Assembly: GCF_001647545.1 (NCBI RefSeq)
Contig: NZ_LSZH01000001.1
Span: 62,001 to 126,000 of the forward strand
Length of the DNA: 64,000 nucleotides
Source of the DNA: Acinetobacter sp. SFB
Lineage (GTDB): Bacteria; Pseudomonadota; Gammaproteobacteria; Pseudomonadales; Moraxellaceae
Direction: 5' to 3'
The notes beneath the pieces are model-generated. The model was not told the origin of the DNA, did not search any database, and saw nothing but the letters and a program-made list of their open reading frames with translations. Positions 27,520 through 35,305 of the stretch are shown here, piece by piece. Both the position numbers and the translations under genes were made by a program. The stretch's first letter is position 1. Every line of letters starts with the position of its first letter.

Positions 27520-27783
27520 TGTCGTTCCTTTTTATTATTGGTTCATCATTCTCTTTATACTATGCCCCAGTAGAGCGGAATGTATGTTTATATTTAGGTA
27601 AAGAACTGCCAGTATTTTAGCAACTTACTGAACTTAAAATAACCAGTATTACGCAATAAAAAAATGAATAATCCAATAACTCAATGTGCATTTTTAACTT
27701 TTGCTTAGCTGTACAATGTCTGCGGTTATCTGTCATTGAGTCAGGAATATTGCTATAGTTTTTCTTTTGCTTTTTTCCTCTCT

Positions 27784-28833
27784 ATGTCTTTCGATTTAAA
27801 AACCACAGTTCAGCCAGATACAGAGCTTTCACCACAACAGAAAAAGCTCAATCGACTGATTGAAAAAATCGAACAGCAAAAAATACACCTGATAGCCTGG
27901 GAAAGAGCGCAAAACGACATTCAGCAATATGCACGTCAAACCTTGATGCCTGCTTATAACGAATTACATACTGTATTGTTTCAGCAGCTTGAACAGCTAT
28001 GGAAACACTTACATGGCGGTGAATTTTCAAAAGCAGAAATGGTACAGCTTGATGAAAAAATCCAGCACCTTGCAGCATACCTAAAAGATTCAAATGCCTT
28101 GTCAGCGCAACAAGCCAATACAGTCGATGAAATTGATACTTTTTATCAGCAATATGCAGAGCATACCAACGCAAAGAAAACCAAGAAAAAGCCTTTCGTG
28201 GAAATGGATTCTAACGTTGAAGATATTGATTCAGATGAAGAGGAAACAGCATTTGATCTCTTTGAGGATTGGGACAGTACACAGCACGAACAGCAACGGG
28301 CACAGGCCAAGTTCAAACGGCAACAGGAGAAGCGCAAACAAGCAGAGAAAATGGCAGAGCAATCTTTAAAAACTGTTTATTTGAAAATTGCAGCGACCAT
28401 TCACCCTGACCGTGAACAAGATGAAAGCAAAAAAATTGAAAAAACAGAAATGCTGCAACATGCCAATGCCGCTTACAAGCAGCAGGATTTATTCTATTTA
28501 CTGAAACTGCAAATACAGATTGAGCAGAATAGAGGGACAAGGCAAAAGGGTTTAACTGCAGATCAAGTGAAGTTTTATCAGCTGGCATTGAATGCACAAA
28601 GTCAGCAGTTAGATAGTCAAATAGATGAGATTATTGATTCATTGGTCTGGACAGAAAATGCCAAAATTGCAGTGCAAAAGTCCAAAGGGAAGCTTCAGAT
28701 TAACGACCTGTATAAGCAGATTGATGCAGATACCGCAGCAATTAAACAGCAAATGAAATGGGAAAAAGATCGGTTGAAATATATGAGTCGGTTAAAAGGT
28801 TTGGAGATGTTGTTGGAGAATGGGGCATTATAA
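27784..28833 (+). CDS. J-domain protein (DnaJ-like co-chaperone)
   Basis: 349-residue protein with a J-domain core placed late: KIAATIHPDREQDE, HPD at about residues 207-209, followed by helix III/IV-like AYKQQDLFYLLKL. HPD is the motif by which J proteins stimulate DnaK ATPase. The first 180 residues are Gln/Lys/Glu-rich helical sequence, probably coiled coil, with an acidic patch (VEDIDSDEEETAFDLF) before the J core. I chose ATG 27784 (MSFDLKTT); an upstream TTG adds 16 residues. The ribosome site is poor either way. It lacks the Gly/Phe and zinc-finger regions of DnaJ. Client unknown. Confidence 0.78.
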   Translation: MSFDLKTTVQPDTELSPQQKKLNRLIEKIEQQKIHLIAWERAQNDIQQYARQTLMPAYNELHTVLFQQLEQLWKHLHGGEFSKAEMVQLDEKIQHLAAYLKDSNALSAQQANTVDEIDTFYQQYAEHTNAKKTKKKPFVEMDSNVEDIDSDEEETAFDLFEDWDSTQHEQQRAQAKFKRQQEKRKQAEKMAEQSLKTVYLKIAATIHPDREQDESKKIEKTEMLQHANAAYKQQDLFYLLKLQIQIEQNRGTRQKGLTADQVKFYQLALNAQSQQLDSQIDEIIDSLVWTENAKIAVQKSKGKLQINDLYKQIDADTAAIKQQMKWEKDRLKYMSRLKGLEMLLENGAL

Positions 28834-28843
28834 TTCTTTATTT

Positions 28844-28968
28844 ACCTCTCCCTCTTGCGAAGCAGTGCTTCTCATCGCATAGGCAGAGGGAGTAGCAAGT
28901 GATTTTATACCTACATAAATTTAATAATGGACGCTCCCTCTCCTTTTAGGAGAGGGCTAGGGAGAGGT
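28844..28968. repeat. REP-like inverted pair, left of the DUF559 gene
   Basis: Two palindromic units facing each other. The first, 28844-28892, is a long hairpin: CTCCCTCT pairs with AGAGGGAG around an inner GAAGC/GCTTC hairpin. The second, 28933-28968, is a 36-nt unit, GCTCCCTCTCC to the terminal GGGAGAGGT. The pair is bounded by ACCTCTCCCT and AGGGAGAGGT. Not coding. Confidence 0.8.
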
Positions 28969-29011
28969 TATAAATTCTGCTAATCTAAAGAAAAAATAAA
29001 ACTAAAATCCT

Positions 29012-29383
29012 ATGAACAAAAAGCTCGAGCCTCACCTTTTATTCTTCGCCAAATCCATGCGCCAATCTGCCACCGATGCAGAACATTTGATGTGGCAATT
29101 ACTCCGTGCTAAGCAATTTATGAATCTGAAATTTCGTCGTCAGCATGTGATTGCACCGTATATTATGGATTTTTACTGTCATGAAATTGGCTTAGTAATC
29201 GAGCTAGATGGTGGTCAACATGGTACGGCTGATGCGATTGAATATGATGCTGAGCGAAGTAAGTTTTTAGAGGCTTTGGGTTTAAAAGTGGTGCGGTATT
29301 GGAATCATGAGGTTTTGAATCAGGTAGATTCCGTATTAGAAAATTTATGGGAAATTTGCTTAAAACTAAAAGATGATAAGTAA
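29012..29383 (+). CDS. DUF559 protein, predicted Vsr-like PD-(D/E)XK endonuclease
   Basis: 123-residue stand-alone DUF559 protein, a family placed near the very-short-patch-repair endonuclease fold. It shows the family N-terminus AKSMRQSATDAEHLMWQLLR, then FRRQHVIAPYIMDFYC (catalytic Asp) and VIELDGGQHG (the E-x-D pair plus His), then ALGLKVVRYWNHEVL. Metal-dependent DNA cleavage or nicking is therefore likely but unproven. The ATG has no good ribosome site. The gene sits alone between two inverted pairs of REP-like repeats, with only 43 and 9 bases on either side, so gene and repeats look like one unit. Confidence 0.85.
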   Translation: MNKKLEPHLLFFAKSMRQSATDAEHLMWQLLRAKQFMNLKFRRQHVIAPYIMDFYCHEIGLVIELDGGQHGTADAIEYDAERSKFLEALGLKVVRYWNHEVLNQVDSVLENLWEICLKLKDDK

Positions 29384-29392
29384 TGGAAGCAG

Positions 29393-29503
29393 ACCTCTCC
29401 CTAACCCTCTCCTAAAAGGAGAGGGAACTTCATTGCGTATCAAATGAAAAGTGAATTCACAAAGAATGCTCCCTCTCCCTATGGGAGAGGGCTGGGGTGA
29501 TGG
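29393..29503. repeat. REP-like inverted pair, right of the DUF559 gene
   Basis: Two 36-nt palindromic units, 29393-29428 and 29468-29503, face each other across a 39-nt spacer. The first is the reverse complement of the 28933-28968 unit at 34 of 36 positions; the second is the same type in direct orientation. The pair fills the space between the DUF559 stop and the stop of the convergent DUF6414-like gene and may serve as its terminator. Confidence 0.85.
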
Positions 29504-29504
29504 A

Positions 29505-30458
29505 TTAGATGCAAATCGACATGGCTCGAATTCTTACAGCTGGACCTTTAATTTTTAATCTCAACACTTGGTTAAGTTTTTCCATAATAATATCTTTGAT
29601 TAATAAAAATTGGGTAGCTTTTTGATGGTCTTGCCAAGCAACAAATCCATGTTGAAGAATGCGAAGTAAGGGAGAAATTAAGCTACGCTGAATTAAATCA
29701 ATTTCACCATCTGGACTAACAATCTTTGTAATTTTTCCATAAATATGAAAATATCCATCTGTTAGTTGAGCCTTAATTCTTTTTGGATCTTGATCGTTAA
29801 TATCTAAATCTACGATTCCAATGCATTCACCATCTTCATTTAGAATCATCATTTCAAGTAAATTAGACTCTAGATAATTTTTCTCCAGTTCATTAATCAC
29901 ACCGGTTAAAATTTGAATACCATTTTTTGCATTTATAGCTTGATTATTCACCGGACTTTTTTTATGTGAAGTTACAGGTGTATTAAAAATTTGATTGCCA
30001 AATAAATTAAAAATAGTTTCAAAATGTGGTGTTAATGATTTTATTATTTGAATAATCTCGAAGAAATCAACTGGCTGTAAAATTCCTTCAATTTTTTTAT
30101 ATGGAATCTCATTTTTAATATTTGATATATTGCTGATTTCATAAACAAATTTTTGTTGGTAAAGCTCTTTTAGGACTTTCATATGCAGAGCTCCCAAAGT
30201 TAAATATTTGGTTGAGCTTCTAGAGTAATTATTATTATTTTGATTATCTAATTGTCCTTCAAAGTTGCCTTCTGCTTTTGCTAACCACTCTAGAATGCCA
30301 TTAGTTCCTAATACAGCAGTTCCTTTAAGATGATTATTTGATTGATTAGAATTCGTCTGAGAAATATTAGTAGATGTTTCGACTCCATCAAATAAATACC
30401 CAGCACAGTTAAGTAACATTTTTTCATTTAGGTAAATTGGTTCTAATAAGTCTTTCAT
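29505..30458 (-). CDS. Uncharacterised accessory protein, DUF6414-like
   Basis: 317 residues from ATG 30458 (MKDLLEPIYLNEKMLLN). The opening pattern of an acidic residue, a short strand PIYLNE, then a Ser/Asn-rich linker resembles the DUF6414 family of unknown function, but I recognise it only weakly. There is no signal peptide and no membrane segment. A C-terminal beta domain (AQLTDGYFHIYGKITKIVS) could be a small barrel. The gene is Asn/Ile/Lys-rich and more AT-rich than its neighbours, as is common for acquired genes. It begins 13 nt after the valS terminator without a visible ribosome site and ends two bases from a REP-like unit. Confidence 0.65.
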   Translation of the reverse strand: MKDLLEPIYLNEKMLLNCAGYLFDGVETSTNISQTNSNQSNNHLKGTAVLGTNGILEWLAKAEGNFEGQLDNQNNNNYSRSSTKYLTLGALHMKVLKELYQQKFVYEISNISNIKNEIPYKKIEGILQPVDFFEIIQIIKSLTPHFETIFNLFGNQIFNTPVTSHKKSPVNNQAINAKNGIQILTGVINELEKNYLESNLLEMMILNEDGECIGIVDLDINDQDPKRIKAQLTDGYFHIYGKITKIVSPDGEIDLIQRSLISPLLRILQHGFVAWQDHQKATQFLLIKDIIMEKLNQVLRLKIKGPAVRIRAMSICI

Positions 30459-30470
30459 ATTTATAAAAAT

Positions 30471-30494
30471 AAAGGGCTGAATAATCAGCCCTTT
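30471..30494 (-). terminator. valS terminator
   Basis: A 10-bp perfect stem (AAAGGGCTGA and complement) with a four-base loop, followed on the minus strand by ATTTTTAT, lies 30 nt beyond the valS stop. It directly precedes the DUF6414-like gene. Confidence 0.88.
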
Positions 30495-30523
30495 ATACAC
30501 ACATTAGATCAAACTAACAACAC

Positions 30524-33415
30524 TTAAAGCGCTGCAATCTGATCCATATTCGCTTGAATCTTCACTAACTGATCAGCAAATTCAGCCAATTTAACTTTCT
30601 CGCCTTCAACCACAGCAGCAGGTGCTTTTGCCACAAAACCTTCATTCGAAAGTTTGCCTGCAATTTGGTCATGCTGCTTTTGAACTTTATCAAAGTCTTT
30701 CTGCAAACGACCGAGTTCCGCTTTAGGGTCAATTAAGCCCTTCATCGGAACGAATACAGAGGCATGACCGACTACAGATGAAGATGACAATGGTGGTTGT
30801 TCGTCATTTGCCAAGTAAGTAATGCTTTCCACTTTTGCTAGCGCTTTAAACAATGGCTCGATACGTGAAATTTGCGCCACTTCAGCATCAGTGATGTTTT
30901 GCATCAATACCGGAAGTAAACGTGCATTACCTAAGCCCATTTCACCACGGATGTTACGTACCGCACCAATCAAACCTTGTAGCCAGTGCATATCTGCTTC
31001 AGCTTGGTCATTGATTTTCGCTGGGTCAGCAACAGGGTAAGCCGCAGTCATAATGGTTTCGCCGCCCAAACCAATCATCGGCGCAAGAGTTTGCCAAATT
31101 TCTTCAGTCAAGTACGGCATGATTGGATGCGCAAGACGTAAAGATGCTTCCATCACCGCAAGAAGAACACGACGAACTTCCGCTTTACGTTCCTCAGCCA
31201 CATTTTCATCATTCAGAACCGGTTTAGTCAGTTCGACATACCAGTCACAGTATTCATTCCAGATAAACTCATAAATCGCTTGTGCAGCCAAGTCTAAACG
31301 ATAGGTCGCAAACGCTTGTTGAACAGCAAGTTCCGCTTTTTGTAGGCGGCTGACGATCCATTGTTCAGGTAATTCCCAAAGATCAGGACGTGCAGTTTGA
31401 CCAACCGTTTGACCTTCCACATTCATCAGAACGAAACGTGTACCGTTCCAGATTTTGTTACAGAAGTTACGGTAGCCTTCAACACGTTTCATGTCGAATT
31501 TAATGTCACGACCGGTGTTGGCAAGTGCGCAGAAGGTGAAGCGAACTGCATCTGTACCGTAAGACTGAATGCCTTCAGGGAATTCTTTACGGGTTGATTT
31601 TTCAATCTTCGCCGCTTGTTTCGGGTTCATCAAACCTGTAGTACGTTTTTGTACCAGAGTTTCTAAATCTACACCGTCAATCAGGTCTAAAGGATCAAGC
31701 ACGTTACCCTTAGATTTAGACATTTTCTGACCTTCGCCATCACGTACCAAACCATGTACATACACAGTTTTAAACGGGACTTGCGGTGTGCCATCTTCAT
31801 TCTTCATGAAGTGCATGGTCATCATGATCATGCGGGCCACCCAGAAGAAGATGATGTCAAAACCGGTCACCAACACATCGGTTGGGTGGAAAGTATTGAG
31901 GAAATAGTTTTCCGCATCTTTCTTGGCATCGCCAGTCCAACCGAGTGTTGAGAACGTCCAAAGACCAGACGAGAACCAGGTATCTAAAACGTCTTCGTCT
32001 TGTTTCAGTTCTACATCAGCCGCAATGCCGTTTTCCGCGCGCACTTCCGCTTCCGAACGACCCACATAGATGTTGCCATCTACATCGTACCAAGCCGGAA
32101 TACGGTGACCCCACCAGAGTTGACGTGAGATACACCAGTCTTGAATGTTGTTCATCCAGGCCATGTACATGTTGCTGTATTGCTCAGGCACAAATTTAAT
32201 GTCGCCATCTTTCACTGCTTGAATGGCAGGTTCAGCAAGTGGTGCAATTTTCACATACCACTGATCCGTCAATAACGGTTCAACGATCACGCCTGAACGG
32301 TCACCGCGAGGGGCTTTCAAGTCATACGGCTGGATTTGATCGAGCCAGCCTTCGCTTTCCGCTTGTTCAACCAGTTTTTTACGCGCAGCAAAACGTTCTA
32401 AACCAATATACTCTGCAGGTGCAGCAATGGTTTTAGAAATCTGTTCGCCCGCTTTGGCAATGTATTCAAACTCAGCCAGCACTTCAGCATTTTTATTGAA
32501 GATGTTGATGATTGGTAAGTTGCAACGTTTACCCACTTCATAGTCATTGAAGTCATGTGCAGGTGTGATTTTTACACAGCCTGTACCGAAGTCTTTTTCG
32601 ACATATTCGTCGGCAACCACAGGAACCAAACGACCTGAAATTGGCAGAACAATATTCTTGCCGACAAGATGTGCATAACGTTCATCTTCAGGGTGTACCG
32701 CAACAGCCGAGTCACCGAGTAATGTTTCAGGACGAGTCGTTGCGACAACCAGGAAGTCTTTGCCATCTTTGGTGCGCAGATCTTTATCTTCAAAGAAATA
32801 CTTAAAGTGCCAAAGTGAACCTTTTTCTTCTACTGATTCAACTTCAAGGTCAGACAGGGCAGTTTGCAGTTTCGGATCCCAGTTCACCAGGCGTTTACCA
32901 CGGTAAATCAAGCCTTCTTTATGTAAACGTACGAAGACTTCTTTCACCGCATTCGATAAACCATCATCCATGGTGAAGCGTTCACGTGACCAGTCTACTG
33001 ATGAACCTAAACGGCGAATCTGGTTGGTAATGTTGCCGCCAGACTGTTCTTTCCATTCCCAGACTTTTTCAATGAACTTTTCACGGCCCAAGTCATGACG
33101 GCTGATGTCTTGTGCAGCCAGTTGACGTTCTACCACCATTTGGGTTGCGATCCCGGCATGGTCAGTTCCCGGTTGCCACAGGGTATTTTTACCTGACATG
33201 CGGTTATAACGGGTCAAGGCATCCATAATGGCATTGTTAAAACCATGACCCATGTGCAAGTTACCAGTGACGTTTGGGGGCGGAATCATGATACAGAAAG
33301 AGTCGCCTTTTTCAGACGGCTTAAAGTAGCCGTTTTCTTCCCAAGTCTTGTACCATTTTTTCTCGATCTCGGTAGGATCGTATGTCGTAGCAATATTTTG
33401 CGCAGAATCAGTCAT
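30524..33415 (-). CDS. valS: Valine-tRNA ligase
   Basis: Class I aminoacyl-tRNA synthetase charging tRNA-Val, 963 residues, cytosolic. The HIGH-type motif is [14 protein letters not shown] (about residue 50) and [12 protein letters not shown] is near residue 562. Between them lies the CP1 editing domain ([19 protein letters not shown]) that removes Thr-tRNA-Val. [14 protein letters not shown] marks the anticodon-binding region, and a C-terminal coiled-coil tail ([20 protein letters not shown]) is typical of ValS. Length and domains are complete. Its own terminator follows. Confidence 0.97.
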
Positions 33416-35205: not shown

Positions 35206-35305
35206 GCTCCCTCTACCTGTAGAAGAGGGTGGGGAGGAAGGTAGATTTTATGAAAATATAATCCCTCCCTTAGGCAACATTGTTGTCACCTTTCATAAAG
35301 GGAGG
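35206..35305. repeat. Third REP-like inverted pair, without a nuclease gene
   Basis: 35206-35241 is a diverged 36-nt unit of the same family as 29468-29503 (GCTCCCTCT start, AGAGGG core, GG end). 35264-35305 is a facing hairpin: CCTCCCTT pairs with AAGGGAGG around an inner CAACA/TGTTG palindrome. The order, short unit plus long double hairpin, matches the pair left of DUF559. It lies between the convergent SDR and YbjQ genes. Confidence 0.7.

Follow-up and report, generated by a model that had tools for sequence, protein, structure and literature searches.

RAYTs, which are HUH/Y1 transposases, have clade-specific repeats. RAYTs are regarded as the movers of GTAG REPs (PMC3733652, PMC8049555), and RAYT–REPIN systems consist of dispersed palindromes, inverted pairs and a vertically inherited partner gene, with more repeats in the genomes that hold the gene (PMC8049555). 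The boxC, PIT or triplex motif (TM) repeats have been known since the 1990s, and a G/C-rich form of them has been reported from >260 genomes (PMC4666352). They combine a purine-motif hairpin with a third strand, have TTA or CCG as the second loop and occur as inverted pairs of a type A and a type B unit; the E. coli motif is reported to form a triplex in vitro, and footprinting in living cells gave no support for a stable triplex (PMC4666352). In the available text of Holder et al. (2015), no mobility genes, no common neighbour function and no enzyme behind the repeats are reported (PMC4666352).

The protein described here belongs to DUF559. Its E. coli representative, YcjD, has been counted among known PD-(D/E)XK members in a study whose profile detects Vsr (PMC1189080). 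The Caulobacter DUF559 protein VsrA triggers the SOS response upon loss of a methyltransferase, and a role in mismatch repair has been proposed for it (PMC12907096). In evolved Legionella, segments carrying both a transposase and DUF559 act as hotspots of recombination (PMC12308824). In the literature that we searched, which lay mostly outside subscription journals, DUF559 was found together neither with triplexes nor with repeats and Vsr, and the examined portions of texts on DUF559 with REP or palindromic elements held no link to these repeats; such a link may be in print elsewhere.

The window, a 64-kb stretch of the Acinetobacter sp. SFB genome, contains a DUF559 gene with repeat units on both sides. 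The features of the locus are as follows.

27736-28833, + strand: neighbour gene, HPD-bearing and J-domain-like by eye; context, outside the repeat–gene unit
28844-28892, − strand: degenerate outer left unit; ACCTCTCCC followed by a segment with a small internal hairpin, GAAGC-agt-GCTTC
28936-28968, + strand: inner left complete unit, CCCTCTCCT-TTT-AGGAGAGGG-CTA-GGGAGAGGT; tail towards the gene, mirror 9/9 (T for A allowed)
29012-29383, + strand: DUF559 nuclease gene, an ORF of 123 aa, type A, PF04480
29393-29425, − strand: inner right complete unit of the same class as the inner left, inverted; tail towards the gene, mirror 9/9 (T for A allowed)
29471-29503, + strand: outer right unit, CCCTCTCCC-TAT-GGGAGAGGG-CTG-GGGTGATGG; mirror 8/9 (T for A allowed)

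A preliminary description of this DNA had the gene enclosed by two pairs of REP-like palindromes. The enclosure is confirmed, with a degenerate outer left unit: the reverse complement of one inner unit (28933-28968) agrees with the other (29393-29428) at 34 of 36 positions, and a separate comparison gave 92 per cent over 39 nt. The three complete units (28936-28968, 29393-29425 and 29471-29503) are each exactly 33 nt long and fold with z-scores of -3.1 to -3.6 against shuffles; the degenerate unit (28844-28892) reaches -3.2. Hairpin-bearing units resembling the latter were seen by eye at orthologous sites in relatives, and it is probably a decayed unit. Filters applied to the whole window recovered just these three complete units, all beside the DUF559 gene, and no purine/pyrimidine hairpin apart from the three that they contain. 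A weaker palindrome at 35209-35229 (CCCTCTACCTGTAGAAGAGGG, two mismatches to the stem) falls outside the complete-unit filter. Across the SFB genome, the 21-nt palindrome occurs at 23 places with up to two mismatches and the reversed control pattern at none. Three of the 23 adjoin the DUF559 gene at 29012-29383, and several others are paired, 25 to 81 nt apart.

The neighbour gene (27736-28833) had no match in a Pfam profile search. At 29505-30500, in the gap between 28833 and a ValS-like ORF (30524-33415), the ORFs differ among Acinetobacter genomes, with a DUF6414 gene present here; the stretch 3' of the HPD-bearing gene looks like a hotspot of variable genes.

Membership of the 29012-29383 protein in DUF559 is clear from its PF04480 match (E 5.4e-36; 123.2 bits against a curated cut-off of 20.6). 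Its predicted model (pLDDT 90.4) has as best PDB fold match 3hrl, a gonococcal endonuclease-like protein of the DUF559 family, which our family profile A1 also matches at E 2.1e-42. The model further resembles the homing endonuclease I-Bth0305I (3r3p; E 8.3e-5) and, more weakly, Vsr (1cw0; Foldseek TMq 0.65, E 0.019), with 5hmC restriction enzymes among the weaker predicted matches. Conserved residues among 40 sequences include D53, E64, D66, Q69 and H70. The likeness to I-Bth0305I and Vsr is one of fold, and for Vsr, which nicks T:G mismatches at a methylation motif, it is from the fold that the likeness is known here. Unlike in those systems, neither an intron nor a single long target site was seen at this locus, and short repeats accompany the gene. 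The gene is intergenic, between repeat units, and an exact empty target was not found among 30 loci of the neighbour gene.

A defence system was considered and rejected: PADLOC gave three weak matches, the best to DpdF (E 1e-5) over 48 residues of a 1078-position profile. A phage origin was likewise rejected, with matches in 3 of 50,697 phage records. A third PF04480 match in the SFB genome (L003, C13:168060-168215) fits DUF2726 better (53.4 bits, against 31.6 for DUF559), and no purine/pyrimidine hairpin was found near it. Many short Acinetobacter matches to PF04480, covering profile positions of about 39-90, may be of this DUF2726 kind.

The complete units share the layout Y9-N3-R9-N3-(R/T)9, a purine/pyrimidine hairpin followed by a 3-nt linker and a 9-nt tail. 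The tail is a mirror image of the purine arm, T being tolerated opposite an arm A. Judged by its sequence, the unit is arranged as an antiparallel purine-motif intrastrand triplex, i.e. the published boxC/PIT/TM motif; the units have each of the elements that define such a motif (purine/pyrimidine hairpin, short linker and mirror third strand). Thus, of the term 'REP-like', the palindrome stands and the likeness to an ordinary REP does not, since the unit continues into the mirror tail. By inspection, the units also lack the GTAG tag of the repeats moved by RAYTs.

We read 71 Acinetobacter DUF559 loci out of 84 places at E <=1.2e-27 (the top 71 rows except for one that lies at a contig end, together with the second SFB copy). 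They comprise 38 type-A and 33 type-B genes. Within each type all genes come from separate genomes, so that none of the genomes contributed two genes of the same type to this set. Type-A genes had A-class units within 400 nt in 36/38 cases and type-B genes had B-class units in 24/33; no locus (0/71) paired an A gene with B units or the reverse. Eleven of the 71 (two type A, nine type B) had no complete unit near the gene. As in RAYT–REPIN systems, repeats were more frequent where the gene is present: units occurred in 70/71 Acinetobacter genomes with DUF559 (E < 1e-11) and in 22/48 without it (Fisher 5e-12, a value inflated by relatedness), the 48 possibly including missed copies. The control line of the PF04480 searches omits E. 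coli, yet K-12 YcjD scores 167 bits, so that either the search can miss copies or its control strain lacks the gene. Some genomes without detected DUF559 are rich in units (42 in G012, 31 in G059). Truncated DUF559 matches, some of them containing stops, occur in several Acinetobacter genomes and suggest gene decay.

Genome-wide, the mix of A and B units tracks the DUF559 type only as a trend. The median share of A units was 46 per cent in A-only and 17 per cent in B-only genomes (p 2e-4, inflated by relatedness; labels judged on the 71 loci read), with A units in 10/16 B-only and B units in 19/21 A-only genomes.

The type-A gene adjoins an orthologue of the 27736-28833 gene in 33/38 loci, and the type-B gene does so in 0/33. 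This single neighbour points to vertical inheritance of type-A DUF559, a likeness to the partner genes of RAYT–REPIN systems that holds less clearly for type B. Type-B genes adjoin several different genes (one family in 14/33, another in 8, others fewer). Among 30 loci of the neighbour gene, DUF559 was present in 15 and, within the stretch examined, not in the other 15, four of which run into a contig end within 300 nt. A unit or remnant lies about 12 nt past the neighbour in three of these 15 (G018, G082 and G059); the other 12 show none.

The preliminary description raised the possibility that the block 28844-29503 is a self-contained mobile unit. The inverted flanks recall IS and MITE elements, type-B genes sit beside several different genes and DUF559 occurs in 44 plasmid-collection records (some of them chromosome-sized), as a mobile gene cassette would predict. 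Such a cassette is nonetheless improbable: type A lies at one site in 33/38 loci, which weakens the idea for that type.

The repeats behave differently from the gene. At three orthologous intergenic sites, inspection by eye showed that some relatives share the doublet, while others have a different doublet facing the opposite way, other palindromes or nothing of the kind; these are three of four dispersed doublets, the flank of the fourth (L004) having failed to align. Repeat doublets thus turn over while the gene mostly stays put, the part about the gene applying to type A.

We then looked beyond the genus. In a Pseudomonadota sample of 398 genomes, 145 had a PF04480 match, and the 70 best-scoring DUF559 places, not all matches, were taken (30 from the top of the rows that had loci and 40 from the rows that followed, which had none). 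Purine/pyrimidine hairpins were present within 250 bp of 65/70 of these loci, compared with 7/139 control window pairs. Complete units occurred in 35/70 loci and 2/138 controls with equal 300-bp windows (35/70 and 3/139 with unequal windows). A set of 80 named loci had complete units within 400 bp in 46, a count biased upward by an underlying alignment rich in unit-bearing loci, for which reason the phylum-wide sample was added. Around the named loci there were 93 units per 61.8 kb near the gene versus 19 per 318 kb far from it, and hairpins lay within 250 bp in 69 loci versus 10/193 control pairs. The hairpin rate beside DUF559 is therefore about 17-18 times that of control windows, across many genera. 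Unit-bearing named loci include Chlorobaculum, a Nitrospirae MAG, Zixibacteria, Brocadia, Gastranaerophilales, an Actinomycetes MAG and Coatesbacteria. Two findings were named in advance as grounds for abandoning the link, namely DUF559 genes mostly lacking such repeats and repeats equally frequent beside unrelated genes. Instead, repeats accompany most DUF559 genes in the Acinetobacter, named and phylum-wide sets alike, and among 60 dispersed-unit loci the most recurrent neighbours were DUF559 and its neighbour gene, with 6 loci each (the next had 5, 4, 4 and 3).

A single change suffices to place the two repeat classes on a 182-protein tree (119 labelled rows), compared with a minimum of 31 and a mean of 38 in 200 shuffles. 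Leaving out the 71-locus Acinetobacter set gave 61 labelled rows, two of them still from Acinetobacter (L213 and L222), and again one change. The labels are measured repeat classes only; of the 63/182 unlabelled rows, 4 are mixed or other and 59 lack a complete unit nearby. Few columns underlie the tree and its forks are mostly weak, with a support of 82 for the split in the first tree. Residue 42 separates the classes in the 119 labelled proteins (C class: R 66, K 3, L 1; T class: Y 46, N 3), a signal confounded by the single split on the tree. The link of these repeats to DUF559 is strong and the pairing well supported, each lineage of the nuclease going with a repeat version of its own.

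One could suppose that some other enzyme moves the repeats, which then gather beside DUF559 at a tolerant site. DUF559 lies <=400 bp from 7/60 dispersed-unit loci and the remaining 53/60 are far from any copy, and units persist in genomes without detected DUF559, as such hitch-hiking would predict. The class pairing makes it very unlikely: hitch-hiking would not account for the absence of A/B crossing within the genus, the single change on the tree or the excess of hairpins over controls.

The mirror rule was examined in T-class units, those with a stem ending TTT-loop-AAA, using the first 80 strings of a unit listing, which are related copies. The mirror register averaged 5.84/6 matches with 69/80 perfect, the direct register 3.69/6 with 0 perfect, and shuffled tails 4.39/6 with <=29 perfect in any of 2000 shuffles. 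Because five of the six compared arm/tail positions are free in the search pattern (one is fixed as G, in real and shuffled strings alike), this agreement is a genuine test. Over the 16 distinct arm/tail pairs the mirror register scored 5.19 versus 3.44, and the 69 perfect strings fall into five stem types, each with its own matching tail. Among 149 hairpins of the 80 named loci, a perfect tail within 45 nt was mirror in 58, direct in 28 and inverted in 4 cases; shuffling predicts 1.3 mirror tails, and the linker was 3 nt in 38/58. Phylum-wide loci with complete units, mostly with C-class stems, had 61 mirror, 65 direct and 26 inverted of 83 at >=7/8 matches (mirror expected 10.9). The mirror and direct registers are inseparable there, and the mirror claim accordingly rests on the T-class repeats and the 80-locus count.

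Phylum-wide loci without the 3-nt form gave 34 mirror, 24 direct and 7 inverted of 65 (mirror expected 7.8), and several of these mirror tails follow hairpin linkers, e.g. GGGAGAAGG-tgcccgaagggc-GGATGAGG. A hairpin replaces the 3-nt linker at L115, L110, L326, L274, L116 and L232, which include some alphaproteobacterial and clostridial loci; in L232 and L116 it is GTCC-ggca-GGAC. Such a linker would join its own two ends, as a folded three-stranded unit needs. Covarying mirror tails and hairpin linkers are evolutionary evidence, drawn from sequence comparison, that a three-stranded fold, or at least mirror symmetry, is under selection.

Two individual arrangements were also seen. At L088, eight T-class units lie within about 0.9 kb 3' of the DUF559 gene, spaced by about 95 nt or double that. 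Some DUF559 proteins end in PSPxPSP (e.g. L095, L109), which by eye resembles translated repeat units; the repeat may run into the gene end in these cases.

The DUF559 gene of E. coli is ycjD. Strain 118UI has two boxC-type units 3' of ycjD, each with one stem mismatch, and K-12 has one with one stem mismatch and one shortened; no boxC unit was found on the 5' side in either strain. These are the TM_ECO kind of Holder et al. (PMC4666352). That report gives no function common to the neighbours; here one partner, DUF559 (ycjD in E. coli), recurs and is matched to the repeat class. A K-12-like ycjD was present in 3365/5426 E. coli genomes (megablast). We did not find a clean empty site for it; two genomes without a match that we viewed hold a TetR/RND efflux locus next to fabI. 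A gonococcal DUF559 locus carries units whose stem differs again and whose tail is an exact mirror; it comes from a chromosome-sized record in the plasmid collection. A DUF559 locus on a Synechocystis plasmid has no full unit beside the gene.

The preliminary description further suggested a distinct repeat-associated system with a Vsr-like nuclease rather than a RAYT, and the PF04480 match, the fold and the class pairing bear this out. Movement of the units by RAYT-type (Y1/HUH) transposases would fit the role these enzymes are held to have for GTAG REPs (PMC3733652, PMC8049555). The gene content speaks heavily against it: PF01797 was found in 22/119 Acinetobacter genomes, and units occur in 73 of the 97 without it. 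As the SFB genome is among those 97 and the units are without the tag, we rejected RAYTs as the mover and regard this origin as extremely unlikely.

From the observed pairing, class specificity, mirror architecture and doublet turnover, we infer that DUF559 recognises, cuts and mobilises the repeats. As we picture it, DUF559 would be the dedicated partner nuclease of intrastrand-triplex repeats, its gene mostly inherited in place (type A), with inverted pairs of the matching repeat class around it or near it. When single-stranded or under torsion, the repeat would fold into a purine/pyrimidine hairpin with a third strand. DUF559 would recognise the fold or the sequence of its cognate unit and nick at or near it, and host replication or repair would then copy or move the inverted doublets into other intergenic regions, the part that RAYTs play for REPINs. 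A hydrolytic nuclease would require host enzymes to finish the reaction.

Support for a partner nuclease comes from the uncrossed classes, the hairpin enrichment, the one change on the tree, the mirror rule and hairpin linkers, the doublet differences, the co-occurrence of units and gene, and the 97/119 genomes in which no Y1 transposase was found. It is weakened by the units in 22/48 genomes without DUF559, the 11/71 loci without units, the 7/60 dispersed loci near DUF559, the inseparable mirror and direct registers phylum-wide and the one-sided placement of units at ycjD. The in vivo footprinting result (PMC4666352) and the repair role proposed for VsrA (PMC12907096) weaken it too. A Vsr-like repair or guard nuclease would cut damaged or structured DNA, with the repeats as regulatory or substrate sites spread by something else. 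The predicted structural likeness to Vsr and the SOS response to methyltransferase loss in Caulobacter (PMC12907096) are in its favour, and a general repair enzyme would not predict clade-specific repeat classes or inverted framing pairs; we think it unlikely. The partner-nuclease explanation as a whole, from pairing and recognition to nicking and the spread of doublets, is probably right, with considerable room for doubt. A wider proposal, that DUF559 proteins are dedicated mobilisers of triplex repeats, reading folds in a clade-specific manner and having seeded boxC-type repeats across phyla by a route unrelated to HUH transposition, is more tentative and falls somewhat short of an even chance.

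By analogy, the best reading is a nuclease–repeat system that may work like RAYT–REPIN and is built from unrelated parts. Both parts are known singly. What is new is that neither the enzyme nor the repeat belongs to the RAYT–REP family, the logic alone being common. If true, this would be a second, independent solution to the task that RAYTs perform for REPINs, and DUF559 would be a candidate enzyme for a puzzling repeat family of many bacteria, E. coli included. A class-specific partner nuclease would make the origin of boxC/PIT repeats directly testable in E. coli through ycjD.
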